In this document: positions 3,684 to 46,362 of the stretch, piece by piece
How the letters are laid out: each line of letters starts with the position of its first letter
Position numbering within the stretch: the first letter of the stretch is position 1
Virus record (IMG/VR): IMGVR_UViG_3300021962_000187
Span: 1-46,362 of that record
DNA length: 46,362 nucleotides
Source: a virus
Reading direction: 5' to 3' (one strand)
The notes under the pieces: model-generated
Told to the model about the DNA's origin: nothing
Seen by the model: only the letters and a program-made list of their open reading frames with translations
The model's database searches: none
Translations under genes and position numbers: made by a program

Positions 3684-4568
3684 TTAAAGTTCAACCTCCA
3701 GTCTCCATTGCTTACTAAAATGAGTTGAGTTTTCATCAGTGGAGCATACAAGTTTGCACGTGGGATGACATTCGGGTGTATTCCAGTGTTGTTTAATTTC
3801 TTCATACTGATCCACAACAGCACCATCGTTGTGTCCTAAGAAACAACAAGGATGCACAATGCCAGCAGCACTCACATATAAACTTTGTTCTTTTTTGGCG
3901 TGGCACATGATTGGGCCAGTGTTGAGCACAGGCGGAACCCAGCCCGCAGGTGGCTGTAGCCAGGCTATTGTATTTTTACGTTTGCTTACTTTTGCTCTAA
4001 ACCAAGAAAATCCCATTTGTCGTGCCACAACCTCAGCAAGATCTACCTGGTGTGAGTTGTAATCATATATCAGCATATCCCATTGTGCATTGCCGCCGGC
4101 CTGTATAAAAGCCGTGGTATTTTTTATGATCTTTTCCCACTGTGTATTCACACGATACAGATGATTGGTATCTTCTAATCCATCAATGCTAAAAATTACA
4201 AAATCAAGAGTATTGGATAATATCCCTGCCAACTCACTCCACCAGGCAGCATTGCGTAAGCTGCCATTGGTATTCATTCCCAATGTGATGTCAGGATTGA
4301 TTTCTCTGAAATAGCGATATATGTCCAAGGTATGAACACCTGCAGCAGGATCGCCGTAGTTGCCACACATGAACATCTTGTCAAGATTTTTAATAAACTC
4401 TGTAGAAAATAATTCTTTTATACGATCCACAGTTAAATGATGTATGTCCTGTTCTTTGTTGAATCTGAAGGGATTCTCTCTAGGACATAGAGGGCAGGCA
4501 GCATTGCACATGGTAGTGGGCTCCAAGTGCAGTACTTTTACTGGATAATGATCAAATGATATCGACAT
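3684..4568 (-). CDS. Radical SAM protein with SPASM-like C-terminal cysteines
   Basis: The radical SAM cluster motif C21-x3-C25-x2-C28 (TMCNAACPLCPR) lies close to the start, followed by GDPAAG and SIDGLEDTNHLYR, both typical of the barrel. The C-terminal third has CHAKK, HPCCFLG and CHPTCKLVC, a cysteine set resembling SPASM/twitch auxiliary cluster domains. Such enzymes usually act on peptides or small cofactors. The frame is open upstream to an ATG at 4640, but that would overlap gp46 by 89 bases. I chose the ATG at 4566-4568 (17-base overlap, 294 residues), just before the conserved core; the ATG at 4592 is the main alternative. No strong ribosome site decides it. It sits between gp46 and the second radical SAM gene in one operon. 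Confidence 0.8.
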   Translation of the reverse strand: MSISFDHYPVKVLHLEPTTMCNAACPLCPRENPFRFNKEQDIHHLTVDRIKELFSTEFIKNLDKMFMCGNYGDPAAGVHTLDIYRYFREINPDITLGMNTNGSLRNAAWWSELAGILSNTLDFVIFSIDGLEDTNHLYRVNTQWEKIIKNTTAFIQAGGNAQWDMLIYDYNSHQVDLAEVVARQMGFSWFRAKVSKRKNTIAWLQPPAGWVPPVLNTGPIMCHAKKEQSLYVSAAGIVHPCCFLGHNDGAVVDQYEEIKQHWNTPECHPTCKLVCSTDENSTHFSKQWRLEVEL

Positions 4569-6315
4569 CGGTATTGTAACTGGTAAACCCATTTTCTTTG
4601 ACCACACGCAAGATATTTTCAACACGTCCAGCCAACTCATCTCTGTGACTGACCAGCCAAATACTCTTGTGGCGTTCCCTGCTCATTTGCTTCAGCAAGG
4701 CCAAGCTGTTTTCTACACCTTGTGTATCTAGCCCTGAGTCAATCATTTCGTCAATGAATAGGACATTGATGGGTTGATACAGGCTTTCAAACACATCTCG
4801 GAAGGCCCAACTCATACTTAGTATAAGTCTGTTGCGTTCACCACGTGACAAGTTATCAAAATCCAACTCGCGGCCCAGTTCTTCAATACTGACAGTGAGA
4901 TCGTTTTGAAATACCACCGTATGCGGCAAGCCAATGCGATCCAAGTAGTGTGTGAGCCTAGCATTTAGATAGCTGAGATTCTGTTCAATGATCTTTTTGC
5001 GTATAAAGCTGTCTTTGCTGGTCAGCAACTTGAGCAAGAAGTCTTGATGATCCTGCAAGCGTGTCAGATCGTTCATGGTGTCATACGTGACTTCTTGCAA
5101 GGCTTGATTCTGCATGTCCACAATCTGTTCACTGTAAGGATCTGTTTCGGCTGATCGTGCGGTCAACTCTTTTCGCAAGGCTTCCAAGCTGTTGCGATGA
5201 TTAAGGGCATCCTCTAAGGTATCGTAAAATACCCTGGGCTGTGCACCAATTTCTCCTAGATCCTCTAGCTCGTTTTCAAGTTCCACGATAGTAACGCCAG
5301 CCAAATCAACTTCGACACAGGCTACATCAAGCTCATTCTGTTTGGTTGCAATAATAGATTCATGCTTGTCATCGTGCAACTCATGCCCACATGCATGACA
5401 TTTGTGTTCTAGTAAAGCAGCAACTTCTTTTGCTATTCGATCTGCAGTTTTCTTTTCGCGATCTTGGTCAAGTCGTGCTCGAGTTAACGACTTGTTAATA
5501 TCAGCACGTTCTTTGACTAGATTGTTGTACTCTGTGAGAGCCTTGTGAGCAGCTAGTTCTGCTTCGATATCAATGTGTTCAAGGCTGGCAATGGCTGATT
5601 CTAACTTGGCAACATCTTCGCTTTGTTTGTTGCCCCACATGCGTTGTCGCTTGCGTAAGCTTTCGATCTGTTCTTCGATACGTTTGTTAGCCTCTTGTAC
5701 AGCACGAATACGGAATTCTTCTTGCTGTATGCTTTCTTTGGTTGCTTTGTTGAGCTCTTTGATCTTGTCAGCACGTTCGCTCAACATGGTAATGCCCAAC
5801 AACTGCTCAATGATGGTGCGTTGATCGTTGGCTTTGAGACTCAAAAATGGCTCAGTATAGGTGTTCAAGGCCAGGATGTGTTTGAACATGTCGTGGCTTA
5901 GTCCTAGAGTACGCTCAATGGCATCTTGTGTTTCTCTTGAGTCGCCTTGTGCATCGTCGGCAATTTCTTGCTCACGGTCGTTGACATAGAATCTCAGCAC
6001 ATTAGGCTTACGTCCACGTTCAATGCGATACTCCTGTCCACCAACTGCAAAATCCAAACTGACCAGCATGTTTTTGCCGTTGGTCTTGTTTACCAGATTG
6101 TCTTTGCGTATGTTGCTGAGGGCCGTGCCGTAAAGTGCATAGCTCAGTGCATTGATGATTGTGGTCTTACCGGTGCCGTTACGACTGCCATCACCGCCTA
6201 GGTCCAAGTTTTCACCCAGAACCAATGTTAAGTCTTGTCGATCAAAATCTACACCTTGTGTGGCATTGCCCACACTCATAAAATTTCTTACTGTAAGATT
6301 CTTAATTTGGATCAA
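4552..6315 (-). CDS. 46: Recombination endonuclease subunit gp46 (Rad50/SbcC-like ATPase)
   Basis: This is the SMC-type ATPase partner of gp47, which together resect DNA ends for recombination-dependent replication. Visible in order: a P-loop ending NGTGKTT (residues 46-52), preceded by the extended loop GENLDLGGDGSR; a Q-loop region; two long coiled-coil arms; the zinc-hook CHAC (about residue 305); the ABC signature LSRGERNRL (about 488); Walker B VLFIDEM (about 518); and the switch histidine in LVSHRDE. The open frame extends to a GTG at 6372, which has no ribosome site and overlaps the upstream gene by 61 bases. A TTG at 6313-6315 has GGAG seven bases upstream and overlaps the previous stop as TTGA, so I chose it (587 residues). 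T4 gp46 is about 560 residues. Confidence 0.93.
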   Translation of the reverse strand: MIQIKNLTVRNFMSVGNATQGVDFDRQDLTLVLGENLDLGGDGSRNGTGKTTIINALSYALYGTALSNIRKDNLVNKTNGKNMLVSLDFAVGGQEYRIERGRKPNVLRFYVNDREQEIADDAQGDSRETQDAIERTLGLSHDMFKHILALNTYTEPFLSLKANDQRTIIEQLLGITMLSERADKIKELNKATKESIQQEEFRIRAVQEANKRIEEQIESLRKRQRMWGNKQSEDVAKLESAIASLEHIDIEAELAAHKALTEYNNLVKERADINKSLTRARLDQDREKKTADRIAKEVAALLEHKCHACGHELHDDKHESIIATKQNELDVACVEVDLAGVTIVELENELEDLGEIGAQPRVFYDTLEDALNHRNSLEALRKELTARSAETDPYSEQIVDMQNQALQEVTYDTMNDLTRLQDHQDFLLKLLTSKDSFIRKKIIEQNLSYLNARLTHYLDRIGLPHTVVFQNDLTVSIEELGRELDFDNLSRGERNRLILSMSWAFRDVFESLYQPINVLFIDEMIDSGLDTQGVENSLALLKQMSRERHKSIWLVSHRDELAGRVENILRVVKENGFTSYNTDVDII

Positions 6316-14107: not shown

Positions 14108-17086
14108 ATGTCCACAGTAGCAGAACTTACAAGGCAGCGTGCCTCGTTAGAGCGAGACCTTGCTATTCTAGAAGTAGAATATGCAAAACTTCAGCAACGT
14201 GGTGCAAGTCGTACGGCCATCAACGATGCCAGAATTGCCATTGCTGAAACACGTTCTGAATTGGCATCAAACACAATAGAACTACGACAAGCAACTGCTG
14301 CCGAAAGGCCAGCAGATAATTCTGGCGCCTTGGTTAGAAATGAACAACAAGGTCGAGAAGAAAATGCCAATACCACGCTGCCGGCAGCTCCTAATCTGAT
14401 TCAAACTGGACCTAATGGTCGAGTAGTACCACCTACACCTGCAGTACCTACTAATGCCCGTCGTCCCGGCGCAGAAAATGACGAAGGCACTAATGCACCG
14501 GTGCGTAGCATAACTTCAACACAATCAACCCCGCCGCCCACTGCTCAACCCACCCAACGAGCAAGACCAGATGCCCCCACTGCTGGTCAAAATGCTGGTG
14601 TTGGTGCGCTAGGGCAAGATGCAGCCGGCAGAGCAGGCACATTACAAGGACTCAAAAATGTTTTTGCCGGCAGCGGATCAAAGATTACTCCTCAACCAAA
14701 TGCCTTGGCCAAGTATGGATCTTATACCTATAATCTCAGCCTTTATATCATGTCTCCCAAAGACTACGAAAAAACAGTATTGGGCGGAAGAATTGTAGTT
14801 CCGGGTTCACAACTGTTGATACAAAGTGGAGGCATGCCGTCACCATCATCTACACCTACATCAACCGATTCTCAACTAGATGGCATAACCGGGGAAACAG
14901 CAGGTACTCAGCCCACTGCTGCGGGCCGCAATCAATATTTTCCATTGGATTTTTACATTGATGATTTTACCATCACCAATCTGCAACCAGGCAAGGGTAC
15001 CAGCAGTGCCAATGCTGTCACTAACATGCGATTTAAAATTGTTGAACCCAACGGCATCAGTTTTCTAGACAACCTGTACAGTGCCTGCGAACAATATGTG
15101 GGCAAAAAACAAAATTATGCAGCACAAAATTATCTCATGGTCATTAGATTCTATGGCTACGATGAAAATGGAATGCTAGTTAGACCTGACAACTTGACGA
15201 AAAATGTCAGAACAGATCAATACGCTCTAGTGGAAAAATACATACCTTTTCAATTTACAAAAATTGGATTTCGTGTGGCCAATACCTTGACAGAATACAA
15301 CTGCGAAGCTGTGGTTCCTGGAAATAATCAAGCTTCGGGTCAGGCCCGAGGCATAATACCTTACAACACAGAATTGCAAGCCGAAACCATCGCAGGACTC
15401 TTTGGGGGCAAGGCCTCCTATAACGAAAAAGAACAACAAGATGGCCGAGAACAAATTGCCTCGGAAACCGCACAAGACGGCCCAGGCACATCGCCTCCGC
15501 CGCCCAAGGCCAATGCTGCACCTAAAAAAACCATAACTGGCGGTCTAATGGATGCACTGAACCAATACGAACAAGAACGAGTCAAGGATGGAATATTCAC
15601 AGTCCCTGACCAGTATGAAATAGTATTTCCGGACCCAGTGATTAGCAATGCTAAAACCCAGCCGCCGGGAGTGGTCGACAAAACCAAAGTAGGGCAACCT
15701 ACTCCAACCACAGCAGGTCAGGCCAAAAATCCTGCCACTAACTCAATGAACCCCAATACACAGACCAAACCGTCTGTGGCTGGCATGAGCATAATTCAGT
15801 TTATAGATCAAGCTGTGAGAACCAGCAGCTATATCTACGAACAACAAATAACACAGTACGACGAAGAAGGCAACGAAATCAAAAACGGCAAAGCACCGCC
15901 ATTGACTGCTTGGTATCGTATTGGAGTACAGGCCTTGCCCATCAAGTATGATCCCAAACGTAACGATTATGCCTACAAGATAACTTACAGCGTGAATCCC
16001 TACAAAGTCAATGACCTAAAAAGCGAATATTTTAACGATAGTCCCTACAACGGTACGCATAAAAAATACTACTATTGGTTCACAGGCGAAAACGTCGAGA
16101 TACTGGATTACCAACAAGACTTCAATAATCTCTTTTATATTGTGGTCAACGGCAATCAACCACCCAAGAATGGCCCCATTATAGACTATCGCGAATTGCC
16201 TAAAAAGTCTTATCAAACTCGCAGCCAAGAAAGTGACCAAGGTCAGGATGGAAAGATCAACGAGCCTGCTGCCAACGCAGCCACCAGCTTGTACAGTCCT
16301 GCCGACTTGAGTCGTGTAAAAATAACCATTGTAGGTGACCCGGCATGGATAGCTCAAGGCGAAATAAATCGAAGCATACGTGCTTTCAACTACAGCCCAT
16401 TTTATCCCGACGGTACCATCAATTACGAAATACAACAGCCCCTGTTTGAAATTGGTTGGAACAAACCAGTTGATTACGATTTGACCACAGGTTTAATGAA
16501 TCCCAACCAACGAACCAATGGTGCCAACGAAATTGATTCACTAGGTCCAGGCCCTACACAGAGTAATATTTTCCGTGCTATAAGCGTGACCAGCAGCTTC
16601 AAACAAGGAAAATTCACACAAGACCTTGAAGGACTTCTGGTACAGTTTCCGTCTACTGCTATCAAGAAAAATGATGCTCCGTCAGAATACGAAAATTTTT
16701 CTACGTTAACACCCGGCCCAAACTCCAATGCCAGCCAAGGTCGCAACGGCGAACCTGCTACAACTACACCGCGTCCTGCGGCTGCCACTTACCCGGGCGC
16801 AATAGCAAACCCTGCTGTGATACCTACACCAGTGCAGCCTAGAAATGGTGCACGTCAAATAACTGCGATTGACCCAAAATCTGCTCCTTCTCGATCACCT
16901 GCTACTGCCCCAACAGCCCGAGTCAATCCACAGACAGCACAGCCATTGACCAATCGTGCTCCGGCCAGTGGGGGTCAGCCAGTTGGGGCTGTAACATCCA
17001 ATGCTGGTGGAGCTGCTACAGGTATCATACGAGGTAGAACAGCCCCAGTAAATACACCACCTCAAAACGGAGCCAAGGATTACTAA
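14108..17086 (+). CDS. Large baseplate hub-type structural protein
   Basis: This 992-residue protein lies between gp53 and gp5. It begins with a coiled-coil segment (residues 1-60, rich in E, R and L), then a Pro/Thr/Ala linker to about 190. A folded region starts at TYNLSLYIMSPKDYE and includes FPLDFYIDDFTITNLQPGKG, MRFKIVEPNGISFLDNLY and YLMVIRFYGYDENG, a pattern I recall from structural proteins of marine T4-like phages at this location. A second folded part (about 550-880) contains YRIGVQALPIKYDPKRNDYA. The last 120 residues are again disordered Pro/Ala/Thr. Its position directly before the gp5-like spike suggests it fills the gp27 hub role, but that equivalence is inference. Confidence 0.7.
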   Translation: MSTVAELTRQRASLERDLAILEVEYAKLQQRGASRTAINDARIAIAETRSELASNTIELRQATAAERPADNSGALVRNEQQGREENANTTLPAAPNLIQTGPNGRVVPPTPAVPTNARRPGAENDEGTNAPVRSITSTQSTPPPTAQPTQRARPDAPTAGQNAGVGALGQDAAGRAGTLQGLKNVFAGSGSKITPQPNALAKYGSYTYNLSLYIMSPKDYEKTVLGGRIVVPGSQLLIQSGGMPSPSSTPTSTDSQLDGITGETAGTQPTAAGRNQYFPLDFYIDDFTITNLQPGKGTSSANAVTNMRFKIVEPNGISFLDNLYSACEQYVGKKQNYAAQNYLMVIRFYGYDENGMLVRPDNLTKNVRTDQYALVEKYIPFQFTKIGFRVANTLTEYNCEAVVPGNNQASGQARGIIPYNTELQAETIAGLFGGKASYNEKEQQDGREQIASETAQDGPGTSPPPPKANAAPKKTITGGLMDALNQYEQERVKDGIFTVPDQYEIVFPDPVISNAKTQPPGVVDKTKVGQPTPTTAGQAKNPATNSMNPNTQTKPSVAGMSIIQFIDQAVRTSSYIYEQQITQYDEEGNEIKNGKAPPLTAWYRIGVQALPIKYDPKRNDYAYKITYSVNPYKVNDLKSEYFNDSPYNGTHKKYYYWFTGENVEILDYQQDFNNLFYIVVNGNQPPKNGPIIDYRELPKKSYQTRSQESDQGQDGKINEPAANAATSLYSPADLSRVKITIVGDPAWIAQGEINRSIRAFNYSPFYPDGTINYEIQQPLFEIGWNKPVDYDLTTGLMNPNQRTNGANEIDSLGPGPTQSNIFRAISVTSSFKQGKFTQDLEGLLVQFPSTAIKKNDAPSEYENFSTLTPGPNSNASQGRNGEPATTTPRPAAATYPGAIANPAVIPTPVQPRNGARQITAIDPKSAPSRSPATAPTARVNPQTAQPLTNRAPASGGQPVGAVTSNAGGAATGIIRGRTAPVNTPPQNGAKDY

Positions 17087-19833
17087 TGTCAGAAAATATA
17101 CAACGCAATCGTGGCCGCAGTAAAAACTACAAGTTTGATCGAGGCGGCAATCCCACAGAGTTTGGTCCATTTATAGGCGAAGTCAAGAACAACGTTGACA
17201 ACGTAAGATCTGGACGTCTGCAAGTTTACATAGAACAGTTTGGCGGCGACAACCCCGACGATGAAAGTTTATGGCGCACAGTCAACTACATTCCGCCCTT
17301 TTACGGATCAATATTGCAGAACGGTACAAATAAAGGTACAGGAACATTTGTAGGAAATCCACAAAGTTATGGCATGTGGTTTACGCCGCCTGACATTGGC
17401 ACACAGGTCATTTGTTTTTTTGTAGCAGGCGATCCCAACCAAGGCTATTACATGGGTTGTGTGCCAGACCCTGGCATTGCTCACATGATTCCGGCCATTG
17501 GTGCCAGTAAGAAATTTGACACGCAAAACGCTGAGCAAAAAGAATACTTTAAAAACGCTAAACAGTTACCAGTAACAGAAATCAACAGCGAAAACGATGA
17601 GATTGACAACAATCCTCAATTTTTTAATCAGCCAAAACCGGTACACTCATATCTGGCCGGAGTAATGCTGCAACAAGGTGTCATTAACGACACAGAACGT
17701 GGTCCCATTACCAGCAACAGTCAACGCGAAAGTCCCAGTGCAGTTTTTGGAATCTCAACACCAGGTCGTCCTGTATTTAAAGGCGGTGACGACGACAAGC
17801 AGATCAAGAAAACAGTAGAAAACAAAGATTCTAAACTGGAAAGCGTGAAAGTTGTGGCACGTCGTGGCGGACACAGTATTGTCATGGACGACGGAGACCT
17901 TGAAGGCCTCGACAACCTGGTAAGAATCAGATCCAGCAAAGGCCATCAGATCACCATGAGTGATGACGGCAACTTTTTTTATATCTTACATGCTAATGGA
18001 CAGACTTGGGTAGAGTTGGGCGCAGAAGGTACCATAGATCTTTTCAGTACCAACAGTGTCAACGTGCGCTCTCAAGGCGAAATAAATTTACACGCTGATA
18101 AAAACATCAACATGTATGCTGGTGAAAGTATCAATATCAAAAGCAAAACAGTCAGAATCAATTCTGTCGAATCTCTAGACCTGGCCAGCAAAACCAATAT
18201 ATCCATGTATAGCGAAAGTTCTATTGGTGTGACAGCATCTGGTAGCCTGGGTATTAAGAGTCAGTCTGGCAACTGGGACGGCGGATCCAGTTTAGCCCTT
18301 AAAGGTGGCACAATCAACTTAAACGGCCCAGGGGCAGGCGCTGCATCTATACCAAAACCAGCCTTGTTGGAAGATATACAACTGCCAGATGTGGCCTGGG
18401 TAGAAGGCAAGGGATGGGAAGAAGAAAAAGGCAAACTGATAACCATTGTGAGTCGTGCGCCTACTCATGAACCTTATCCTTATCATAACCGTGGTGTAGA
18501 AGCCAAATCCACTGTGACAGAGTTTACTGCCAGCGGTGGCGCCAGCGGTGACAGTTCTGGTTTTGTAGGCACACCTGCTACAGCTTCTGTAATACCAACT
18601 ACACCTACCACTGCTGCCACGGCCAGCTTGACCAACCTGCCGGTAACAGATGCAGTGAGTCCAGCGCAGATACTCAAACAAGTAGCTGCTACCACCGGCA
18701 TTGGCAGTTTGAATGTACCGCAAGTGACTAGCCTATTAAGTTCAGCTGCTGCTGGTGTAGGCCAGGCAGCCAATGCGTTCAGCGCATTAAAAGGCATTGG
18801 ACAATACGGGTTTTCGCCACTGCAACTTGAGCAACTGGGTTTAATCAAGCCCGGCACTATTCGCAAGTATTTGGGCAATTCAAATGCACTTAATGCTGTA
18901 TTGACCAGCCCTACTATCTGGACTGGCAAGGACGGAGTCAGCAACTTAGGCGGAATATTGACCAATCCCCAGTTACAGACACGCCTGCAACAAGGCCTAA
19001 TGAAAGACGGACTTGTGGCGTTACGCAAAACTGGTGTGCTAAATGGATTAGAAACAGTTCCTCAATTGGGTTCTTTATTACAGTCAGCGGCCAAGTTTGG
19101 ACCTGATGCAGTAAAATCGTGGGCAGCAGGTCAGGCCAATGCATTTGTACAAAATCAAATCAACAAGTTGTCTAAAAATGCTCAAGTGGCAATTAAAGTT
19201 GCCAACAGCATCATTGGTGCTGTGTTTGGTGGATCTAGTGCTCGCGGTCCCATAGCTATTGCTGGTATAGTGGGCACTGTGAATCGTCTACCTGTAACAA
19301 ATGCCATTGCTGGAGTCATTGGGGATAAGAAAGTTCCAGTGCCAGATTACACTGTGACTTCGATTGACATTAGAAAAGGACAGCAGGAAGTAAGAACTGA
19401 AGCGTTCAACAAGGCCATTGCTGAAGGCAAATCTGAACGGGAAGCAGCACGTATTGGCGCTGCTGCTGGTAATGAATGGGGTGCAGCAGAATTGGCAAAG
19501 TTTGGTACAGGAACAGGCACTACTGGCAGCACCGCCGCTGCAGGCACTGCAGGCACAACAGGTAGAACAAGCAGCCTACAAGAATTCCAACAGACGTTTG
19601 GCACACAAACTGCACAATCTGCAGGACAATCAACATTCTTAGGTACAGGGTCAGGTCTGCCAGTATCTGGTGCAGGGTCAAATGCAGATGCAGCATTGGC
19701 ACAAACCAGAGGAACTACAAATGTAAATTACGCTGATTCGCAATTTCAGTCGCAAGCACAAATTGATGCAGAAATTGCACAAGAAGTAAAACTGGCTGCC
19801 AATAAAGACGCTTTGGCACGTTTGGTCAAATAG
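17086..19833 (+). CDS. 5: gp5-like baseplate spike/hub protein without lysozyme domain
   Basis: A central spike protein of 915 residues. Residues 25-130 form the OB-fold domain (FIGEVKNNVDNVRSGRLQVY, then MWFTPPDIGTQVICFFVAGD and GYYMGCVPD), as in gp5/VgrG. Residues about 255-420 show the two-stranded repeat pattern of a spike beta-helix (RRGGHSIVMDDGD, RIRSSKGHQITMSDDG, INLHADKNINMYAGESINIK). The lysozyme domain that T4 gp5 carries between these parts is absent: only about 110 residues, with HSYLAGVM and no lysozyme motifs, separate them. Beyond the helix is a 480-residue Ala/Gly/Thr/Gln-rich extension. The start overlaps the upstream stop by one base. Piercing the outer membrane is the family role. 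Confidence 0.85.
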   Translation: MSENIQRNRGRSKNYKFDRGGNPTEFGPFIGEVKNNVDNVRSGRLQVYIEQFGGDNPDDESLWRTVNYIPPFYGSILQNGTNKGTGTFVGNPQSYGMWFTPPDIGTQVICFFVAGDPNQGYYMGCVPDPGIAHMIPAIGASKKFDTQNAEQKEYFKNAKQLPVTEINSENDEIDNNPQFFNQPKPVHSYLAGVMLQQGVINDTERGPITSNSQRESPSAVFGISTPGRPVFKGGDDDKQIKKTVENKDSKLESVKVVARRGGHSIVMDDGDLEGLDNLVRIRSSKGHQITMSDDGNFFYILHANGQTWVELGAEGTIDLFSTNSVNVRSQGEINLHADKNINMYAGESINIKSKTVRINSVESLDLASKTNISMYSESSIGVTASGSLGIKSQSGNWDGGSSLALKGGTINLNGPGAGAASIPKPALLEDIQLPDVAWVEGKGWEEEKGKLITIVSRAPTHEPYPYHNRGVEAKSTVTEFTASGGASGDSSGFVGTPATASVIPTTPTTAATASLTNLPVTDAVSPAQILKQVAATTGIGSLNVPQVTSLLSSAAAGVGQAANAFSALKGIGQYGFSPLQLEQLGLIKPGTIRKYLGNSNALNAVLTSPTIWTGKDGVSNLGGILTNPQLQTRLQQGLMKDGLVALRKTGVLNGLETVPQLGSLLQSAAKFGPDAVKSWAAGQANAFVQNQINKLSKNAQVAIKVANSIIGAVFGGSSARGPIAIAGIVGTVNRLPVTNAIAGVIGDKKVPVPDYTVTSIDIRKGQQEVRTEAFNKAIAEGKSEREAARIGAAAGNEWGAAELAKFGTGTGTTGSTAAAGTAGTTGRTSSLQEFQQTFGTQTAQSAGQSTFLGTGSGLPVSGAGSNADAALAQTRGTTNVNYADSQFQSQAQIDAEIAQEVKLAANKDALARLVK

Positions 19834-19863: not shown

Positions 19864-20238
19864 ATGACCACATTTATTGGATTTAATACTATCAATCAGT
19901 ATAGAAAATTTACTTTGGTTGACTTTGAGTTGATCAAACGTGATTTGTCTAATGCTTTTAATATTCAAAAGGGAGAAATTCCTGGAAGACCTGAATACGG
20001 AACAAACTTGTGGAGCTATGTGTTTGAAAATCAAGCAGTGGACACAACACAAGAAATCCTAGCCGAAGTACAACGTGTAGCTGGTGGTGATCCGCGAGTC
20101 AGCCTGCAAGATGCACAAGTGTACCCACAGGATAATGGCATGTTAATAGAACTGTTTGTTCGTGTGGTAAACGGTTCAGAAGCGCAACTGCTGTCGTTAT
20201 TTCTAGATCAAGAAACTCGCAGAGCCACGTTCATCTAA
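19864..20238 (+). CDS. 25: Baseplate wedge protein gp25
   Basis: A 124-residue protein (T4 gp25: 132) of the gpW/gp25 family, related to the type VI secretion sheath initiator TssE. Diagnostic features are LVDFELIKRDLSNAFNIQKG near the start, GRPEYGTNLWSYVFEN in the middle with the EYGTNLW-type loop, and a C-terminal strand pair ending RRATFI. gp25 joins the wedge to the tail sheath and nucleates sheath assembly. It lies 30 bases after gp5 and 47 bases before gp6, the order expected for marine T4-like phages. Confidence 0.92.
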   Translation: MTTFIGFNTINQYRKFTLVDFELIKRDLSNAFNIQKGEIPGRPEYGTNLWSYVFENQAVDTTQEILAEVQRVAGGDPRVSLQDAQVYPQDNGMLIELFVRVVNGSEAQLLSLFLDQETRRATFI

Positions 20239-23747: not shown

Positions 23748-26700
23748 TGGCTACACGTCGCACCGTAGATCTACTACCAGAAATATTTCGCACACAAACG
23801 AATAAACAATTCTTGGGAGCAACACTTGATCAACTGACTCAAGAGCCTGTCATCAAGCGCACACAAGGTTATGTAGGCCGCAGAGTTGGTCCTGGCGTAA
23901 ATCCTGCTGATAACTATGTCACAGAGCCAACTGCTACCAGAAGTGATTATCAACTAGAACCTGGTGTTGCGTTTCTCAAACCAGAAACTAACACAGTTGA
24001 AGATGTTATCACCTATCCTGGTATGATTGATGCCTTAAATCTCCAAGGTGCCGACACTGTTCGCCAAGATGCTTTGTTCCAAAGCGAATACTACGCATGG
24101 GATCCTTTCTGCGACCTGGACAAGTTTACAAACTACAGCCAATATTATTGGTTGCCACAAGGACCTGACTCAGTTGATGTGTTTGGAACTCCCATTGCGT
24201 TAACAGATGCTTGGGAAATCACACGCGGCGAAACAGCTTATACATTCAGCGATCTAGCCGGAAACAATCCCACATTGACACTAGTACGTGGCGGTAACTA
24301 CGAATTTAATGTAAATCAACCAGGTTTTAATTTTTGGATTCAGGCAGCACCTGGAGTCAATGGCCGTATGCCGGCTACACCCAACATTAGCAGCAGAGAT
24401 GTGCTGGGTGTTATCAATAACGGCGAAAGTCAAGGAACAGTGACTTTTAATGTGCCACTCAAAACAGCACAAGATTTTTATTACACTTTGACCAATATTG
24501 GCACTGTGGATCTATTAACAGGCCTCAAGTTTAATCAACTAAACAATGTTTATGTCAGTGAATTTTTAAGCCAGTATCCCGAAGGTATTGATGGTATTAC
24601 CAACCTCGATGGTCGTACTGTAATCTTTACTAACACCACTGCTGATGCCGAGGATGGTGGTTGGCAAGTAACCACACAGTTTGACCCTTTACCGCGCGAC
24701 AACGCTGACAATGGACTGGTTGGCAGTTTTGACACAACCACATTTGATCAAACCACTAACATTGATAGCCAAGCACAACGCTACAGCATTTGGCAAATAC
24801 AATACATTAACGATTTGTCTGGTAATCCTTTTATGCAGCTTACCAGCATTCAAACAATTCCCAACTTCAGCAAGTTTACCATTAACTTTGGCACAATCTA
24901 CGCTAGTACTCAGTGGTACAAAGATGCCGAAGGTTACTTCCAACAGATTCCTCTGCTGACAGCGGTGTTAGACGATCTATACTATCAAGATGGTACCGAC
25001 CCAGAACTGTTTGGCCGTATCAAACTGGTAGATCCAGGCGAAGAGCTGTTTATCGATATCAACGAAATCATTGGTGCCAAAAACTATACCAGCCCCAACG
25101 GAGTGGTATTCACCAATGGACTCAAAGTGCAGTTCCGCGGCCCAATTGAGCCAGCTCGATATCAGAATTTGGAATACTATGTAGAAGGTGTTGGTACCGG
25201 GCCTGGCGAAGAATTTAGAGTGGGCTTTGTTGACGGCGAAGCATATTTTGGTGCTTTCCACACATACCAAGGCCAGTTAATGACTGGAGCTGTACATTCA
25301 ACTACCACTTTCCAGCAGTACATTTATGAAACTGTAGAAGAAAGCCTGCTGAATACAGGAGCCGGTGCTCCCGCAGGTGCTCCACTGTCCAATACCGCAG
25401 TGCCCAGAATTAACATAGGCAACGGTATCAAGTTATTGCTAGTTAGCGAATTTGTAACTCCAGAAACTTATACACGCAGTGCATCTATTCCTTATGACAG
25501 CACTAGCTATGACAGCGAACCTTACGATGCCAGCTTAAATGCACCAACAGTGCCAGACTACATCACTATCAATCGTGCCAGTTGTGATCTCAATGCCTGG
25601 ACACGCAGCAACCGTTGGTTCCACATTGACGTAATTCGCGCCACTGCTACTTACAACAATCAAGTGCAAGTGATTGACAACAATCGTCGTGCCAAGCGTC
25701 CGATCATTGAATTTAGAGCCAACCTTAATCTTTACAACTTTGGAACACAAGGCAAAACGCCAGTCAACGTGGTTGACTTTCAAGAAACAGATGCACTCAG
25801 CAACATCAACGGCCAACGCGGCTATGGTATAGATGGCTATACATTTATCACAGGCAGTCGTGTGATATTTGCTGCTGACCTTGACCAAGAGGTACGTAAT
25901 AAAATTTACGAAGTGCAGTTTATTGATCCCAACAACAGCGGTGTGTTAATCATTGACTTGGTTGAAGTCCCATTAGGAACTGCGTTAGTTAATCAAACTG
26001 TGGTCACACTCAGTGGAAATACCCAACAAGGAAAAAGCTTTTGGTTTGACGGTGTTGACTGGATCCCTGCTCAGGAAAAGACACAGGTAAATCAGCCGCC
26101 GTTGTTCGATGTGTTCGATGCCAACGGTGTTAGTTTCAGTAATCTTGCTGTTTATCCCAGTACCACTTTCCGCGGTAGCCAACTGTTTGGCTATGCTACA
26201 GGATCAACACAAATCATTGATGAATTCTTGGGATTTGCTCTGCGCTATCTTAACATCAACAACGTAGGCGATATTGTATTTCAAAACTATCTTTACACTG
26301 ACACCTTTATCTATGTACGCAATAATGTCAGTTCAGAGTTGGCCATCAGCACAGGTTTCATTAGACAGTATGTGGATCGTGTGACCTTTGGCAGCTTGAT
26401 TGGGTGGCAGCCTGCTGCGGCTGAAAATCGCAGTCGTCAAGTGTTTAGTTTTGTTTATGATCAATCTCCCCTGGTGTTGGACATTGCCATTGACACCGAA
26501 ACAGTATACGCACCAATACAGTTATTTGCAGAAGGCGTTTTTCTGGATCCAACCAACTACACATATACTGTAGGTGCAGAATCTACTACAATAACACTAA
26601 TTGATGAACTGGCCAATGGAGCCATCGTTGAAGTACAAGTTCTCAGTAACCAGACCAGCAGTGTTGGTTTTTATCAAATTCCGTTGAACTTAGAAAACAA

Positions 26701-29700: not shown

Positions 29701-32700
29701 ATATGACATTTACGAATACTGGGCAATTTTACGAGGTCAATATGGTGCAACTGCTAACCGCAGTTATTTTGAGTTGAGATTGAACGAAGCCTTATTACCA
29801 AGCGACCCAAGCCTAGTTCAAGTGGTATTATCACAGCAAGAATCTGAAGCTGATCAAGCAATACTGTTGGAGAATGTGTGGAAGTCTAGCACAGTGTTAA
29901 CTTCCCCTGACATACTACCTACCACCACCACGCCTTCGTCAGCAGATGTTGCCTTACCCACAGCCGGATATGTCAACTTAGCCGACGTGGACCTAACCCT
30001 GTTTGAGTTTGATGCTGGCTTTGGTAGCCTGGTGTTAGATGACATCGGACAAGCAACTACAATATGGGTGGCCAAAGTAAATCCATATGACTGGAACGTG
30101 TACCGCACAGAAACTATCTCAGGTGATATTACTACTGTGTCTGACAACCTTGATGGCCGAGCCTTGGTACAGTTCAGCAAACCTCATGGTTTGTCAGTAG
30201 GCGATGTGTTGGTAATCAAGTATTTTGATCCTAGCATCAACGGCATCTATCGTGTACGTGTGGTAACTGATCTAACCAGCTTGTTGATTGATTATGTATT
30301 TACAGGATTCCAAACCACAATAACTGGAACTGGCATAGGTTTTACACTACAAACAGCTCGTGTATCACAAGCAGCTGATGTGGTTGACCTACCATATGCC
30401 CTACAGCTTGTGCCAGGAGCTCGTGTCTGGGTCGACAACAATGGTGATGGTCTATGGGAAGTTATTGAAAAGACAGATCCATTTGGATCACCCACAGAGC
30501 TAACGCCAGAAACACAGTACGAAAATACTCGCTTCGGCGCCAGTGTTGCACAAGGTCTCAGCAATCTCAGTGCTCTGATTGGTGCACCTGGCTACAATCC
30601 CACAGCGTTGGCCACCGCTCCGGGTGCTGTTTATACCTATGTCAAAACACCCGACAACGTCTACGAACAAAACAGCATTTTACAGTTGGGAACCACTGAT
30701 GCTGCTGGCTACGGTAATGCATCTGATATTGGTGATCAAAGTTGGGCCATTGTGGGAGCCAGTGCCAGCTCGTCCGACCGCGGCTACGCTGCTGTCATTT
30801 ATAGAGATCCTGGTTCAAACTTTTTTGAACAAGCGCAGCTATTGGCCATCGATCCTGCTCAATCAATAACTGCCACCGACCGTTTTGGTCACGCTGTTAC
30901 CATGAGTCAAGATGAACGCTGGATCTATGTTGGCGCACCGGGCGGCAATGTAGTTTATGCTTACGGTCGTATTGATTACCAAACTCAATCTACAAAATTA
31001 ATAGCAGGTGCAAGTCAAAACTTATTCTTATACAGCGACAAAATTGTCATAGCTACCGACGAACAACTGGCGGTAGCAGTAGGCGATCAGATACAGACAT
31101 TTGGCACAGACTATACAGTATCTGACAACTATGTTGTGTTCCCTGTTCCGCCAGTCGAAGGTTCAGTAATAACAATTACACGTCGTCCTGCTGCTTCTTT
31201 TGTCGGCGACGGGTCAACTACAACATTTAGTTTAGCCAACATTTATTCAGCTGTCAACAACTATTCTGTTGTAGTTTATGTTGATGGCGCAATACAACGT
31301 CCTGTCATTGACTACAGTGTCAACGGTTTGCAAGATTTGATATTTGCAGTGGCTCCAGCTAGCGATACACAAATCGCAGTAAAAGCACAAACTTACTATA
31401 CCTTAGTGGACACACTAACCGTGCCAGGATTGAGCAGCACTGAACAGTTTGGTTTCAGCGTATCAACAACCACAGATGGCCGACAGGTTATGGTGGGAAC
31501 ACCAGATGTTACAGTTAATGGTATTCCTAGAGCAGGTATTGTGTATGTGTTTGACAGAAGCGTACAGAATTTCCAAGTAACTGATACCAGTGTGCTTGAT
31601 TACACCACTGTCGAATCTCCTGTTGCACCTGTTTCGGTACTGCTGAATGGACAATTTCTAACCAATACCGATGGCAACATTGGTGGTACTTTCTCTGTGG
31701 CTGGCAGCACAGTCACTCTAGACACTACAATCGCTGTAGGTGATATTGTTACAGTAGAAACCAACACATTCGAGTTGATACAAACTATAATATCAGAAAC
31801 TCCTGGCAATAGCGATCAGTTTGGTTATGTAGTTGACCAATGTGTTAACGATTGCAGCGTGTATATTGGTGCACCGTTTGCTGACTCTGAACTTCTACAA
31901 TCAGGCTTTGTAGAATTTGACATTAACCAAGCTCGTGTGTATGGAACTATCACTAGCACCGTTGCCAACCCAACACTGACAGCAGGCAACACTATTCGTG
32001 TGCGCAACTTCTTTGTCACCTTAACTGGAACTACCATTAGTGATCTAGTTAATGACGTCAACGCAGCGTTGGTTCCGAACGTTCAAGCAACATTGACTAC
32101 AGATGTAGAACTGTTGGGCGACGGAACATCAACGGTGTTTGATGTTGGTTCCATATACTCAGCTGCCGCTTCTTATACCACCCGTGTACTAATCAACGAC
32201 GTGGTGCAGATTGCTGGTGTTGATTATGTTTATAACAACACCAATGAAACTGTAACATTTACTACTGCTCCATCTTTTGGCACTATCATAACAGTGGTGT
32301 CGGGCAGAATGACACTGTCAGTTAAGAATTTTGCAGCATCAATTCCGTTGAATAGATTACAGGTTCTGCCTGGAACTGGCACAGCTTTTACTGATGTAGG
32401 ATTTGATATCTATGTACATCAACAGAAGATTGTAGCACCTGTTCCGCAATCTTATGCAAACTTTGGCAAGAAATTGTTTATCAGTGATAATACCACAAGT
32501 TTGTTGATTAGCGCACCCAATGGAGCACTAATAGAGTTTGTGACATTCGACGATCAAACCACAACATTTGATGCTAAAACTACTATATTCAGCGACACAA
32601 TAACTCAAAGCGGTGTAGTGTATCTTTACGATCAACTGCCTGCTGCATCACCGTCAGTTAATAATCCTGCGCAGTTTGTATTTGGTCAACAAATTTTTGA

Positions 32701-35700
32701 CAACTCAATGGCAAGCCTGGACGAGTTTGGTGCAGGCCTTGACTATACCACTGGTACCTTGTTGATTGGTGCTCCCGGTAATGATCAAGGCGACAGCGCA
32801 GCCAACTACGGTCGGGCTGTTTGGTTTAGAAACGACAATCAACTGCCAGCTTGGCAAGTCACACGTTTACAACAACCTGTGGTCGACATCAACCTGTTGA
32901 ATACAGTTTACATGTACGATCGTGTGACTAACAAACCAAAACAATACTTTGATTATTTTGATCCGCTACAAGGTCGCCTGCTAGGTGTAGTAGCACAAAA
33001 CATCAACTACATTGGTGCCATAGACCCTGCTGCCTACAACATTGGTGGACTAAACAATTACGGTGGTAGCTGGACACAAGAACGAGTGGGCGAGATTTGG
33101 TGGAACACCACTGATGCCAGATTCATTGATGTCAATCAAGACGACGTGGTATACGCCAGCCGACGTTGGGGTCAACTGTTTCCGGGCAGCACTATCAATG
33201 TGTATCAGTGGATTGCTAGTTCTGTAGCTCCTGTGGATTACACAGGCCCTGGGATACCTTTGTATGTCAACAGCTATGTTATTTCCAGTTCATTGAGTCA
33301 ACAAGGAATTTTCAATACTGTATATTATTTCTGGGTTAGTGGAATAACCACTGTAAACACCGCAGCCAAGAAAACACTCAGTATAGAAACTATCCGTAAC
33401 TATATCGAAAGTCCCAAGAGCAGTGGGATCAGCTATATTGCGCCAATTAATGCCAGCACCGTTGCTATCTACAATGGTCTAGAGTACATTTCAGCCCAAG
33501 ACACCATTCTCCACGTTGAATACGATCAAACGTTAAACGACGCTGCTGTACACGTGGAATACCAGTTGGTGGTTCAAGACAGAGCCGACGGCTTCCTAGC
33601 TCCCGCACTTTATAACAAACTACAAGACAGTTTCTGCGGTGTAGATGTTACTGGCGCACCCGTACCAGACCCACAAGCACCCATCAGCGAACAATATGGC
33701 GTGGCAACAAGACCGCGTCAGAGCATGTTTGTTAACAGATTCTTGGCACTGAAGAATTATCTAACTCGTGTCAACAGTGTGATATTGCAGCTACCTATTT
33801 CTGAATCTCGTGTGTTTAATTTGTTGAACAGTGCAGAACCAGAACCATCTAGTTACTCGGGTGCCTGGAACAAACGTGTGGCCAACTATGAAGAGTTGAC
33901 TTTTCAAAATCTAGAAGAAGTTGGTGTAGGATACCGATACTTGGTGGCCAGCGATGTAACCAACAACGGTCTATGGACCATATATCAAGTTGCCAATGGC
34001 AATTTACCTGGTGAAAAAATATTGTTGCTGACCAGGGTACAAAATTACGATACCAAGCAGTACTGGAATTATATTAACTGGTATCAGCCCGGATATGATT
34101 CGGCCACCCGTATTTTGATAGAAGTTCCTAACTATTCAGCCTTGGGCACAATTTCAGTTCCTCAGGGCAGCAGCGTTAAAGTAACTGCTAATGCACAAGG
34201 CAAGTGGGAAATTTATCAATTGACAGATGCTGCTGTTCCAACCTGGACCAGAGTAGGTCTGCAAGATGGTACCATAGAATTTTCTGCTACCTTATGGGAT
34301 TACAGCTTAGGACGCTTTGGATTTGACGTTGAAGTATTTGATGCACAGTATTACGACCAAGAACCTGTAATTGAAACACGTAAAATCATACAGGCCATCA
34401 ACGAGGAAATACTAGTAGGCGACCTGTTGATTGAACGTAACCGTGCATTGATCTTGATGTTTAATTACATCTTAAGCGAAGAACAAGCACCTACTTGGTT
34501 GGCCAAGACCAGCTTGATTGATGTCAACCACACCATACGTGAATTGGTGCCATTCCAATCATACCGCCGCGACAACCAAGACTTTGTGTTGAATTACATA
34601 CAAGAAGTCAAGCCTTACCATGTGCAGATCCGCGAATTCAACTTGATTTATAACGGCTTTGATCAGTACAACGGCACAGTCAATGACTTTGACTTGCCAG
34701 CATACTGGGACGCAACAGAAAATCTTTACATAAGTCCAGTGTTAGACAATGCAATTCCTCCAGTGTTGAGCACTACTAGCAGTGTTCCCAGTACCAGTGA
34801 AGTTTGGCAGACACTACCGTGGAATCAGTGGTATCAAAATTACTTGCTGAGTGTTGAGTCAGTTACTATCGCCGACGGCGGAGACGGATATTCAGAACCT
34901 CCAGAAATACTACTAAACGGAGAAACAACTACTGGTTTAGTATGCCGTGTCAATAGTGCTGGATCTGTTGTAGCCATTGATGTAGTTGCTGATCTAACTG
35001 ATTTTGCAACCACTCCCACAATAGAACTTGTAGGCGGATTGCCGGAAGCAGTGCCTTGGGTTGGAAACACACAGGTATTTTCTGGAACAGTATTCCAAAC
35101 ACCGGATGGACTAGTTTATAATGTCACTGTTAGTGGATTCTTAAATGCTGTGCCGCCCATTGCTACCATATCACCTGTGGTTGATGGTACTGCGCTGTTG
35201 AATTACTTGGGTCGCAGAGCTCGCGCTATACCAGTAATGGGCAACGGTCTAGTAAGAAACATTGTGACTACAATCAAATACGATCGATACGAATATCAAA
35301 CTACAATTATTGATTGGGAACCAGATGTCAGCTACGATAACGGAACACAAGTGCGTTATGCAGATCGTGTATGGGCCGCCAACACCGATGACAGTGTCGC
35401 AATACTAAACGCAACATTTGACCCAGATCAATGGACTATTGTTTCAGCCGGTGACCTTAGCGGTGTTAACCGTACAATGGGCTATTATGTGCCTGAAGTA
35501 AATGAACCCGGACTTGATTTAGCCTTGTTGATAACCGGAGTTGATTATCCCGGCGTACAAGTATCTGCACCAAACTTCAGTCAAAACACTGGGTTTGATG
35601 TGGGTAACTTTGATATTAATCCGTTTGATAACCTGGCCTATGGCCCAGAAGGTCGCCCCACATACGATCCTGCTATATTAGATGCCATTTACGAAAGCGA

Positions 35701-38688: not shown

Positions 38689-40047
38689 ATGGCATATACA
38701 ATTAACTTAACTGATGGCACTATTTTTGCTACTATAGCAGACGGTACCATTAACACCACCTCAAGCATGATCCTGGTTGGTAAAAACTACGCTGGATACG
38801 GCGAATTCCTTGATGAAAACTTTATTCATCTTTTAGAGAATGGTTCTAATACCACTGCTCCGGGAGCACCGCTAACAGGACAACTGTGGTGGGACAAGGC
38901 CAATAGCCTGATGAAAGTGTACACAGGTACAGCTTTCAAAACTATTTCGGCTGCCACTGCCAGCGCAACAGCACCAACCGGAAACGTCACCGGTGATATT
39001 TGGTGGGACACGATTAACCAACAGTTAAAAGTCTGGAACGGTACTGCCTTTGTTCTAGTTGGTCCTGCTAGTTCGTCTGGTCAAGGAACATCTGGCGCTA
39101 TTGTCGAAACTGTCACAGATAACGTTGCTGTTGATCACGTTGTTATCAAATTGTATGTGGCCAACACAATTGTTGGTATTATTTCAAAAGATGCAACTTT
39201 TACTCCTCAAGTTGCAATTTCTGGTTTTGCCACTATCAGTCCTGGAATCCAGCTCAGCAGCACAGTAAGCAACAACTTGTTTAGAGGCACTTCCACTGAT
39301 TCTCAATCACTGGGCGGTTTACTCAGCACATCGTTTTTGCGCAGCGACGCCAACGACACAACTAGTGGCACATTAGGTATCCTAAACGACACTGGCTTGA
39401 CAGTGGGTGCTGATCAAGATGCTAAGATTTCAGTTACCACAGCAACTAGCTCCGTTAACATTCAAAACCAAACACAAGATGCCAACATTGCTATTGTTGT
39501 CAACGACGGCGGTGTCACTACTACAGCAATGCTGGTAAATGGTGCCACAAGTCAAGTGGGCGTTCTTGGTATTACTAACTTGAACTCCAGCGGCGTAGGC
39601 AACATTGGTGCTGCCGGCGCAGTGTTCAACACTGTATTTGCCACAGCTACTACAGCACTATATGCTGACGTTGCAGAACGTTTTGCAGCTGACGACGAAT
39701 ACGAAGCAGGTACAGTGGTTGAATTGGGCGGCTCAGCTGAAATTACCAAATCTGTTGATGAATTGAGTGAAAATGTATTCGGAGTGATAAGTACAAGAGC
39801 TGCTTATCTAATGAACTCTGGTGCAGGAACAGATTCAACTCACCCTCCTATCGCAATGACAGGCCGTGTACCAGTTAGAGTAACTGGGTCAATCCGTAAA
39901 GGTGACCGATTAGTAGCAGCAGGCGACGGCCTAGCTCGCGCTGCCAAAACAGGCGAAGCTACAGCGTTTAACGTAATTGGTCGGGCTTTGGAATCCAAGG
40001 AAAGCGAAAGTCTTGGCGTTATTGAAGCAATCGTGACCATCAACTAA
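38689..40047 (+). CDS. Tail fibre-like protein with duplicated WWD/GTAF module
   Basis: This 452-residue protein opens with a virion-attachment-like domain including YGEFLDENFIHLLENGS. Two related modules follow: GQLWWDKANSLMKVYTGTAF (residues 64-83) and GDIWWDTINQQLKVWNGTAF (102-121). The centre is a repetitive Thr/Ser/Asn-rich beta region. The C-terminal domain starts at TTALYADVAERFAADDEYEA, continues GTVVELGG, then GRVPVRVTGSIRKGDRLVAA, a domain common at the ends of fibres of marine myoviruses. Such proteins bind the host surface. Two late-promoter elements and a strong ribosome site precede it, consistent with high late expression. I cannot tell a long from a short fibre. Confidence 0.75.
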   Translation: MAYTINLTDGTIFATIADGTINTTSSMILVGKNYAGYGEFLDENFIHLLENGSNTTAPGAPLTGQLWWDKANSLMKVYTGTAFKTISAATASATAPTGNVTGDIWWDTINQQLKVWNGTAFVLVGPASSSGQGTSGAIVETVTDNVAVDHVVIKLYVANTIVGIISKDATFTPQVAISGFATISPGIQLSSTVSNNLFRGTSTDSQSLGGLLSTSFLRSDANDTTSGTLGILNDTGLTVGADQDAKISVTTATSSVNIQNQTQDANIAIVVNDGGVTTTAMLVNGATSQVGVLGITNLNSSGVGNIGAAGAVFNTVFATATTALYADVAERFAADDEYEAGTVVELGGSAEITKSVDELSENVFGVISTRAAYLMNSGAGTDSTHPPIAMTGRVPVRVTGSIRKGDRLVAAGDGLARAAKTGEATAFNVIGRALESKESESLGVIEAIVTIN

Positions 40048-44764: not shown

Positions 44765-45314
44765 AAATACCAGACCCGATTCGGTTGCTGAGTTTGAAGG
44801 CAACTGGATGCGTTACCAAGCAACACATGCTCTGTCGAGAAACAACGTGGGATTGGCACAGTTTGTCAAACAAAATACATCAACAGGCACAACTGTTTCT
44901 ATTGACAGCTTTGCACCAGCGGTTGCTGCAACTCGTCATTATGAATTCGAACGTAATCGCATTATTTGGGAACACCAGTCTTATGACCCAGTTGAATTTG
45001 TGCAGGTTGCTAACAAATTGCCCCCAGATGTTGGATACAACAATGTAGTATGGTTAGGCGCAGAATCGTTTAAGTACATGACTGTGCCAGAATATTGTGA
45101 ATATGCGTCGAGTGTTTTAGATTTTCAATTGACCACAGGAAATGCCATAGTATGTTTGCCGTTATTGCACTTGCAGTACCATAGATTGCGTTATAATACA
45201 CAACAGATAATAAAACATATTGACAGCACATTTGGGCCTTATCACGTGCAAGATGTTTACTACGACACTAACGAATGTTACCTATCAATAAAAAGAGCCA
45301 GTAATGACAAATAA
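44745..45314 (+). CDS. Unknown 189-residue protein
   Basis: No family recognised. The ATG at 44745 (20-base overlap with the preceding gene) begins MNESIVKNTRPDSVAEFEGN; ATG 44736 is an alternative and the frame runs further back to 44670. NVVWLGAESFKYMTVPEYCE and NAIVCLPLLHLQYHRLRYNT suggest an alpha/beta core. The C-terminus ends DVYYDTNECYLSIKRASNDK. It overlaps the radical SAM gene by 11 bases. The FVKQN motif is shared with the preceding protein, too short to claim common descent. Confidence 0.58.
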   Translation: MNESIVKNTRPDSVAEFEGNWMRYQATHALSRNNVGLAQFVKQNTSTGTTVSIDSFAPAVAATRHYEFERNRIIWEHQSYDPVEFVQVANKLPPDVGYNNVVWLGAESFKYMTVPEYCEYASSVLDFQLTTGNAIVCLPLLHLQYHRLRYNTQQIIKHIDSTFGPYHVQDVYYDTNECYLSIKRASNDK

Positions 45315-46362
45315 AAGTCAGTTTATGAACGCAGCAGAAGAAATGCGGGAAAAGTTAGGCCCTGCACTTTGCTTGGCCAAATGGAAACAAGTAAGCCTAC
45401 ACTTGCCTACTGGTCTCAACAACTCGTGCTACCACCCACCCTTGCACAGTATAGATCCTGGTGTGCTCCGAGACAATCCTGGCGCACTACACAACACTGG
45501 ACACAAGAAACAACAGCGTGTCATGATGTTGAAAAATGAGAAACCATCTGAGTGTAGTTATTGCTGGAACATTGAAAAACACGGTGAGCTGAGTGATCGA
45601 CATTATCGTTCCGGAGAACCATGGGCCGCTGATGCATTTGATACAATTAAAAATAGTAACGGAACAGAGGATATTATACCCAGTTATGTTGAAGTTAACT
45701 TTAATCACGCTTGTAATCTTAGTTGTAGCTATTGTAGCCCTCAATTCAGTAGTTCATGGCAGCAGGAGGTCGAGAGACTGGGCGGATATCCTACTGGAAC
45801 TACTCATAATGATCCTAGCCATTTTGTTGGGCGTAATCGTCCTATCCCTGCCCGAGATCATAACCCTTATGTAGAAGCATTTTGGCAGTGGTGGCCTACT
45901 CTATACCCACAACTGAAGCATTTCCGCATGACCGGTGGTGAGCCACTAATGGACAAGAACACATATCGGGTATTTGACTATGTGCTGGCTCTGCCCAATC
46001 CTGATCTACATTTGAACGTAACGTCAAACTTCAGTGTAGAAGGAGCCTTATTTGTAAAGTATATGGACTATGTAAAAAAGTTGTGCAATACCAATATTGA
46101 ACACTTTATGCAATATGTCAGTATTGATTCAGGCATACCTAAACACGCTGAATATATCAGACACGGTATGAATCATGACCGTGTCATGGGGTATGCTCAT
46201 CACTACTTGTTTGAAATTCCCTACCGCAATAGTCTGACATTTATTATCACAATGAATAACCTCAGTGTGTTGGGACTGCAACGACTTTTAGAAAATGTCT
46301 TAGAAATGAGACGTGCATACAGCACAACCTATCAGCGTGTTTGGTTTGATACACCGTTGTTG
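45304..46362 (+). CDS. Radical SAM protein, twitch-type family (3' end beyond window)
   Basis: The frame is open from ATG 45304 to the last base (353 codons). The radical SAM motif C137-x3-C141-x2-C144 (HACNLSCSYCSPQFSSSW) is followed by the SAM-binding GGEP at 211-214 (FRMTGGEPLMDKNTY). Upstream of the core are SCYHPPLH (residues 41-48) and C84-x2-C87-W (ECSYCWNIEKHGELSDR), typical of the twitch-domain radical SAM proteins often carried by marine T4-like phages; their substrate is not known. It overlaps the preceding gene by 11 bases and is the eighth overlapping gene of the accessory operon. The C-terminal domain lies outside the window. Confidence 0.85.
   Translation, partial: MTNKSQFMNAAEEMREKLGPALCLAKWKQVSLHLPTGLNNSCYHPPLHSIDPGVLRDNPGALHNTGHKKQQRVMMLKNEKPSECSYCWNIEKHGELSDRHYRSGEPWAADAFDTIKNSNGTEDIIPSYVEVNFNHACNLSCSYCSPQFSSSWQQEVERLGGYPTGTTHNDPSHFVGRNRPIPARDHNPYVEAFWQWWPTLYPQLKHFRMTGGEPLMDKNTYRVFDYVLALPNPDLHLNVTSNFSVEGALFVKYMDYVKKLCNTNIEHFMQYVSIDSGIPKHAEYIRHGMNHDRVMGYAHHYLFEIPYRNSLTFIITMNNLSVLGLQRLLENVLEMRRAYSTTYQRVWFDTPLL

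Follow-up and report, generated by a model that had tools for sequence, protein, structure and literature searches.

For the very large proteins whose genes lie next to gp6 in jumbo phages, annotation mostly stops at virion structural or hypothetical protein. One of them, specified by an IMG/VR record of 46,362 nt (IMGVR_UViG_3300021962_000187; the whole stretch that was analysed, called the window here), raised the question whether the middle of such a giant contains a propeller of the integrin type, and what this domain could do in a phage tail. An initial annotation made from the sequence had proposed a propeller of seven FG-GAP-type repeats at 30517-32830, possibly an adhesive or sensing module on the baseplate rim, and had named structure prediction, calcium-binding loops, and an alignment of homologues as suitable checks.

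The window represents a T4-like phage, in which genes for a late sigma factor and SbcC/SbcD-like proteins are followed by a tail cluster with the order hub/lysozyme, gp25, gp6, and giant ORF (Table 1). The giant ORF is uninterrupted over 4705 aa, and its product matches PHROG 10938 (virion structural protein) with 1027 bits. Homology of both flanks of the propeller (blastp/tblastn), together with the position after gp6, identifies it as a giant virion protein of the RaK2/121Q/PA5oct type. Orthologues are found in PA5oct, Atu_ph07, Phosso, 121Q, RaK2, SCTP-2, and Vibrio 2.275.O. A second block of the giant, residues 137-603 (window about 24155-25555), is mostly absent from PA5oct, with about 465 residues between the same flanks here versus about 90 there. 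Downstream of the giant gene, a 452-aa ORF (38689-40047) has a tail-fibre-like PHROG match and, near its C-terminus, a weak match to Peptidase_G2 (self-cleaving chaperone) under the cut-off. Radical SAM matches were obtained for two ORFs, one adjoining the T4-like SbcC gene (3684-4640, minus strand) and the other at the right end of the window (45304-46362, plus strand).

Table 1. Tail-cluster genes and predicted parts of the propeller domain in the window
Feature	Residues	Position (nt)	Strand	Basis or remark
Baseplate hub/tail lysozyme (gp5-like)		17086..19833	+	PHROG 13211
gp25-like baseplate wedge protein		19864..20238	+	Pfam GPW_gp25, 30.2 bits (cut-off 27.2)
gp6-like baseplate wedge protein, 1153 aa		20286..23747	+	PHROG 10646, E 2e-282; PHROG 219
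Giant virion protein, host of the propeller, 4705 aa		23747..37864	+	T4 gene 7 position, directly after gp6
Whole propeller domain with inserts	2226-3042	30422..32872	+	AlphaFold2; Foldseek to integrin alpha heads
Hairpin VWVDNNGDGLWEVIEK, immediately ahead of blade 1		30422..30475	+	Model strands E97-102, E108-113
Blade 1	2258-2316	30518..30694	+	FG at 2263; model strands
Blade 2, degenerate	2317-2374	30695..30868	+	Four model strands; motif F and P missing
Blade 3, strands A-C	2375-2410	30869..30976	+	FG at 2380; strand D after insert, ~2550-2557
Blade 3 C-D loop insert, two beta-sandwich modules	2411-2480, 2481-2550	30977..31396	+	Module HMM
Blade 4, strands A-C	2562-2606	31430..31564	+	FG at 2568; strand D ~2667-2681
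Blade 4 C-D loop insert, one module	2607-2666	31565..31744	+	Model, module HMM
Blade 5, strands A-C	2687-2729	31805..31933	+	FG at 2692; C2699-x3-C2703
Blade 5 C-D loop insert, helix-containing subdomain and one module	2730-2887	31934..32407	+	Model, module HMM
Blade 6	2897-2986	32435..32704	+	FG at 2906; B-C loop extension of ~34 aa
Blade 7	2987-3042	32705..32872	+	FG at 2994; model

The pattern [RQEN]FG-x(8-15)-[IV][GS][AT]P is matched six times, at the FG positions listed in Table 1. When the protein was shuffled 2,000 times, at most one match was obtained (mean 0.005), which rules out a chance origin of the motif. The seventh unit is the degenerate blade 2, GYGNASDIGDQSWAIVGAS, at about residue 2324. 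FG-GAP_2 (PF14312) is the only Pfam family above its cut-off for the propeller (45.2 bits, E 1.1e-11, curated cut-off 23), and this cut-off is also reached by three relatives, L163, L167, and L175. Seven repeats of the FG-GAP type are therefore present, as had been proposed. The accompanying description requires some adjustment. A strand G-x-[VA]-[YW]-x-[YF] was said to follow each repeat; it is clear in blades 1, 4, 6, and 7, only loose in blades 2 and 3, and reduced to GFVEFDI in blade 5. Repeats 2 and 6 were both described as degenerate, which is correct for repeat 2, while repeat 6 retains its FG...AP motif and has merely its VYLY strand displaced by about 34 residues. The domain as a whole is also slightly longer than the interval given initially.

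An AlphaFold2 model of residues 2130-3075, built with 64 sequences, had a pLDDT of 89.3 and a pTM of 0.85, and its strand list is consistent with strands A to D in each of seven units. In Foldseek searches against the PDB, the top 44 matches were all integrin alpha chains, with E values down to 8.7e-11. The best one, 8tcg_A (E 8.7e-11), had a TM score of 0.60, normalised to the 440-residue target, over 847 columns. Matches in a viral structure library included FG-GAP proteins from giant viruses, from S-TIM5, and from Atu_ph07. The rmsd of the better-fitting matches is high, 9-13 Å, which we attribute to the inserts. Closure of the ring is inferred from the fold-search scores and the seven-fold count, and PDB profile searches with flanks and propeller gave no match. 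The predicted structure, the fold search, and the comparison within the family agree on fold and blade count and support a seven-bladed FG-GAP_2, integrin-alpha-like propeller lying centrally within the giant, a structural protein encoded in the tail/baseplate cluster. Calcium-binding loops of the DxDxDG type were searched for in the blades and are absent from all of them. A single DNNGDG occurs ahead of blade 1, at residue 2230, and conservation does not extend to its third acidic residue.

The beta-domains thought to separate blades 3-4, 4-5, and 5-6 are real according to structure prediction and family comparison, and they follow blades 3, 4, and 5. A module HMM detected one and the same beta-sandwich module in the insert stretches 2411-2480, 2481-2550, 2606-2672, and 2784-2855, and again elsewhere in the giant at about 1133-1192, 4158-4204, 4260-4332, 4421-4474, and 4603-4669. 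The extra domains between the blades are thus paralogues of a module used elsewhere in this protein; the other ORFs of the window contain neither the insert module nor a propeller. In the model, all large inserts are placed after strand C and before strand D of blades 3, 4, and 5, so that they should share one face. The hairpin ahead of blade 1 (residues 2226-2243) probably contributes the strand that closes the propeller or lies against it. Its residues W2237 and K2242 are invariant in 81 sequences, and PA5oct and 121Q have a similar VW..W hairpin where the propeller is missing. The most conserved stretch is QDERWIYVGA, in blade 3. The CxxxC of blade 5 (window 31841-31855) has cysteines in 80 and 79 of the 81 sequences, respectively, and the giant contains only eight cysteines altogether; a disulfide or a metal site is a putative role.

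The alignment of homologues likewise supported seven blades. In 81 aligned proteins, the seven FG positions are kept and inter-blade length varies only at set places: the FG-to-FG spacing is 188-352 aa from blade 3 to 4, 147-270 aa from blade 5 to 6, and mostly 88 aa from blade 6 to 7, and the distance from blade 7 to the end is mostly 56 aa. With a blade HMM built without L163, L166, and L172, seven units, some of them weak, were detected in each of these three proteins. None were found in the seven propeller-free orthologues or in shuffled and reversed sequence. In L175, from the deepest clade, all seven units are contained in 410 aa (L175:10215-11468) with inserts almost absent; blades 2 and 3 were read by eye here, the HMM giving four clear units and one weak one. 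This nearly insert-free natural version would be well suited for crystallography and other structure work.

To which phages is the propeller confined? Searching IMG/VR with the domain yielded 308 relatives, including contigs of 200-344 kb. A query with the N-terminal half, which is blind to the propeller, revealed a whole or partial propeller in the best 80 loci wherever the sequence reaches the site; in the six loci without a match, the reading frames end at the contig end. Judged from these searches, the propeller appears common to an entire clade of jumbo phages from the environment, and the giant protein of the seven cultured relatives tested lacks it at this site. FG-GAP propellers, known from integrins, thus also occur within tail gene clusters across many uncultured phages. 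No GenBank phage carries it at E 1e-5; a diverged member as query gave only partial matches there (14% coverage, E 0.8), and L175 none. Among GTDB genomes, 148 pattern matches were obtained and none was confirmed.

The relatives without propeller define its boundary. Between the matched flanks, RaK2, 121Q, and Vibrio 2.275.O have about 110-130 residues and PA5oct about 280, while Atu_ph07 and Phosso have about 1,480-1,500 unrelated residues. Remnants were not detected by the blade HMM in any of these or in SCTP-2. The weak whole-domain HMM scores of Atu_ph07 (19.5 bits) and Phosso (15.4 bits) may result from the repeated module. In Sinorhizobium phage Phosso, two adjacent hypothetical proteins of more than 3,000 aa each (48338-68978; L182:4339-24979) contain most of the 42 FG-GAP_2 matches of that genome, which would fit several propellers in series. 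In a tree of residues 1130-2070, the seven propeller-free proteins are on one side of a single branch with support of 100/100; a single gain or a single loss would fit this tree, which is unrooted and leaves the direction unset.

That the protein belongs to the virion was part of the initial proposal and is borne out for the tail/baseplate cluster by gene order and by mass spectrometry of orthologues, performed by others on phAPEC6 and PA5oct. phAPEC6 gp245 (381.88 kDa, 17 unique peptides), which adjoins the baseplate wedge protein gp244 in the published list (PMC7247149), is taken as an orthologue by size and position. For the PA5oct orthologue, the database record notes detection by ESI-MS/MS. 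A more precise placement on the baseplate rim found no support, since neither T4 gp7 nor any baseplate protein of solved structure was matched by fold or profile. Residues 1-1180 were modelled (AlphaFold2, pLDDT 81) and gave no significant PDB match in Foldseek, and a profile comparison with T4 gp7 (hhalign) returned a probability of 0.25%; homology to gp7 was therefore dropped. Since the N-terminal part lacks a significant fold match, a location on the baseplate is putative.

What could the propeller do there? The preferred interpretation, with a probability of roughly one half, is a rigid docking hub in a giant tail-cluster protein, by analogy to the nozzle of phage SU10. That nozzle has a seven-bladed propeller core, Ig-like domains between blades, and a loop docking the short tail fibre (PMC9509320). 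In the giant, the blades would make a disc, copies of the beta-sandwich module would stand out on one face at the C-D loops of blades 3, 4, and 5, and blade loops or inserts would hold partners, either fibres or other baseplate parts.

Alternatively, the propeller could bind a host-surface ligand, a glycan or a protein, at baseplate landing, as the adhesive or sensing role suggested at the outset would have it. Precedents are the phi11 receptor-binding protein, whose propeller has five blades and a putative GlcNAc cavity, and the seven-bladed propeller of phiKZ gp131C at the baseplate periphery, the role of which is unconfirmed (PMC4901313). Among 13 genomes compared, the propeller shows the lowest identity of four segments of the giant in most pairs, for example 52% with L019 (flanks 72% and 71%) and 58% with L101 (flanks 74% and 73%), and some of the most variable positions lie in the loops between blades. 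This rapid divergence counts against a docking hub and would also fit ligand binding. However, dN/dS ratios between close relatives, which are rough because synonymous sites are near saturation, were 0.034-0.050 for residues 1-2070, 0.035-0.067 for the blades, and 0.083-0.110 for the inserts. Hence, the blades appear to be under strong purifying selection like the structural flanks, the inserts would evolve about twice as fast, and hypervariability as in a fast-evolving host-range adhesin is absent. Host-range adhesins are usually swapped, so the presence of the propeller in virtually every clade member tested also argues against this role. An adhesin for a conserved ligand is possible; taken as a whole, ligand binding at the host surface is rather doubtful. 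Because the blades are strongly constrained and the modular inserts change about twice as fast, the docking hub fits best.

A more far-reaching scenario is also conceivable. The environmental clade of T4-like jumbo phages might have gained an integrin-type propeller once, in the baseplate protein at the gp7 position, and use it as a conserved hub for receptor sensing or fibre docking that couples host contact to tail contraction. In this full form it is unlikely.

The propeller could also be a mere spacer or stabiliser that makes the wedge protein longer or stiffer and has no specific partner, which would agree with its insertion at a site that is just a short connection in RaK2, 121Q, and Vibrio phage 2.275.O and with the wide variation of insert lengths. 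A spacer would not need the almost invariant CxxxC, a blade count of exactly seven, or strong purifying selection, and this explanation is considered quite improbable. Some seven-bladed propellers are enzymes. A function as glycan hydrolase or lyase, suggested for phiKZ gp131C (PMC4901313), is very improbable here, since the fold matches integrins and not glycosidases, FG-GAP_2 stands alone among Pfam families, and no catalytic residue set was identified, although not by systematic search. One internal domain of such a giant now has a clear fold and a testable role.

The fold itself is of a known kind, and its location in a giant phage protein appears to be undescribed; no paper on FG-GAP repeats in phage tails was found in the open-access literature. 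In integrins, the I domain is a domain inserted in a blade loop. The integrin alpha head thus shares the fold, seven blades, the FG...GAP motif, and domains inserted in blade loops with the phage propeller, which differs in its low identity of about 10%, blades devoid of DxDxDG, inserts in other loops, and its occurrence in a phage virion protein. Proteins of the FG-GAP_2 family have the same repeat pattern, whereas the repeats are spaced here by beta-sandwich modules in a tail-cluster protein of 4,705 aa. Cyanophage S-TIM5 gp054 (407 aa, annotated as virion structural protein) and the 'hemagglutinin' of Atu_ph07 (393 aa) have FG-GAP_2 repeats and match the propeller fold, but these are separate small proteins and not parts of a giant at the gp7 position, and tblastn with the propeller domain gave no match to them. 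The phi11 and phiKZ propellers are likewise found at the baseplate of tailed phages; the first has five blades, the second is the C-terminal domain of another protein, and both fall outside the best 50 fold matches. T4 gp7 (1,032 aa versus 4,705 aa) resembles the giant in gene position directly after gp6 (gp25 - gp6 - giant) and not in detectable profile similarity. The nozzles of SU10 and T7 belong to short-tailed phages, have no match in sequence or in a profile search of PDB chains, and are outside the best 50 fold matches, but SU10 offers a parallel in architecture, a seven-bladed propeller as the core of a tail protein with domains inserted between its blades.
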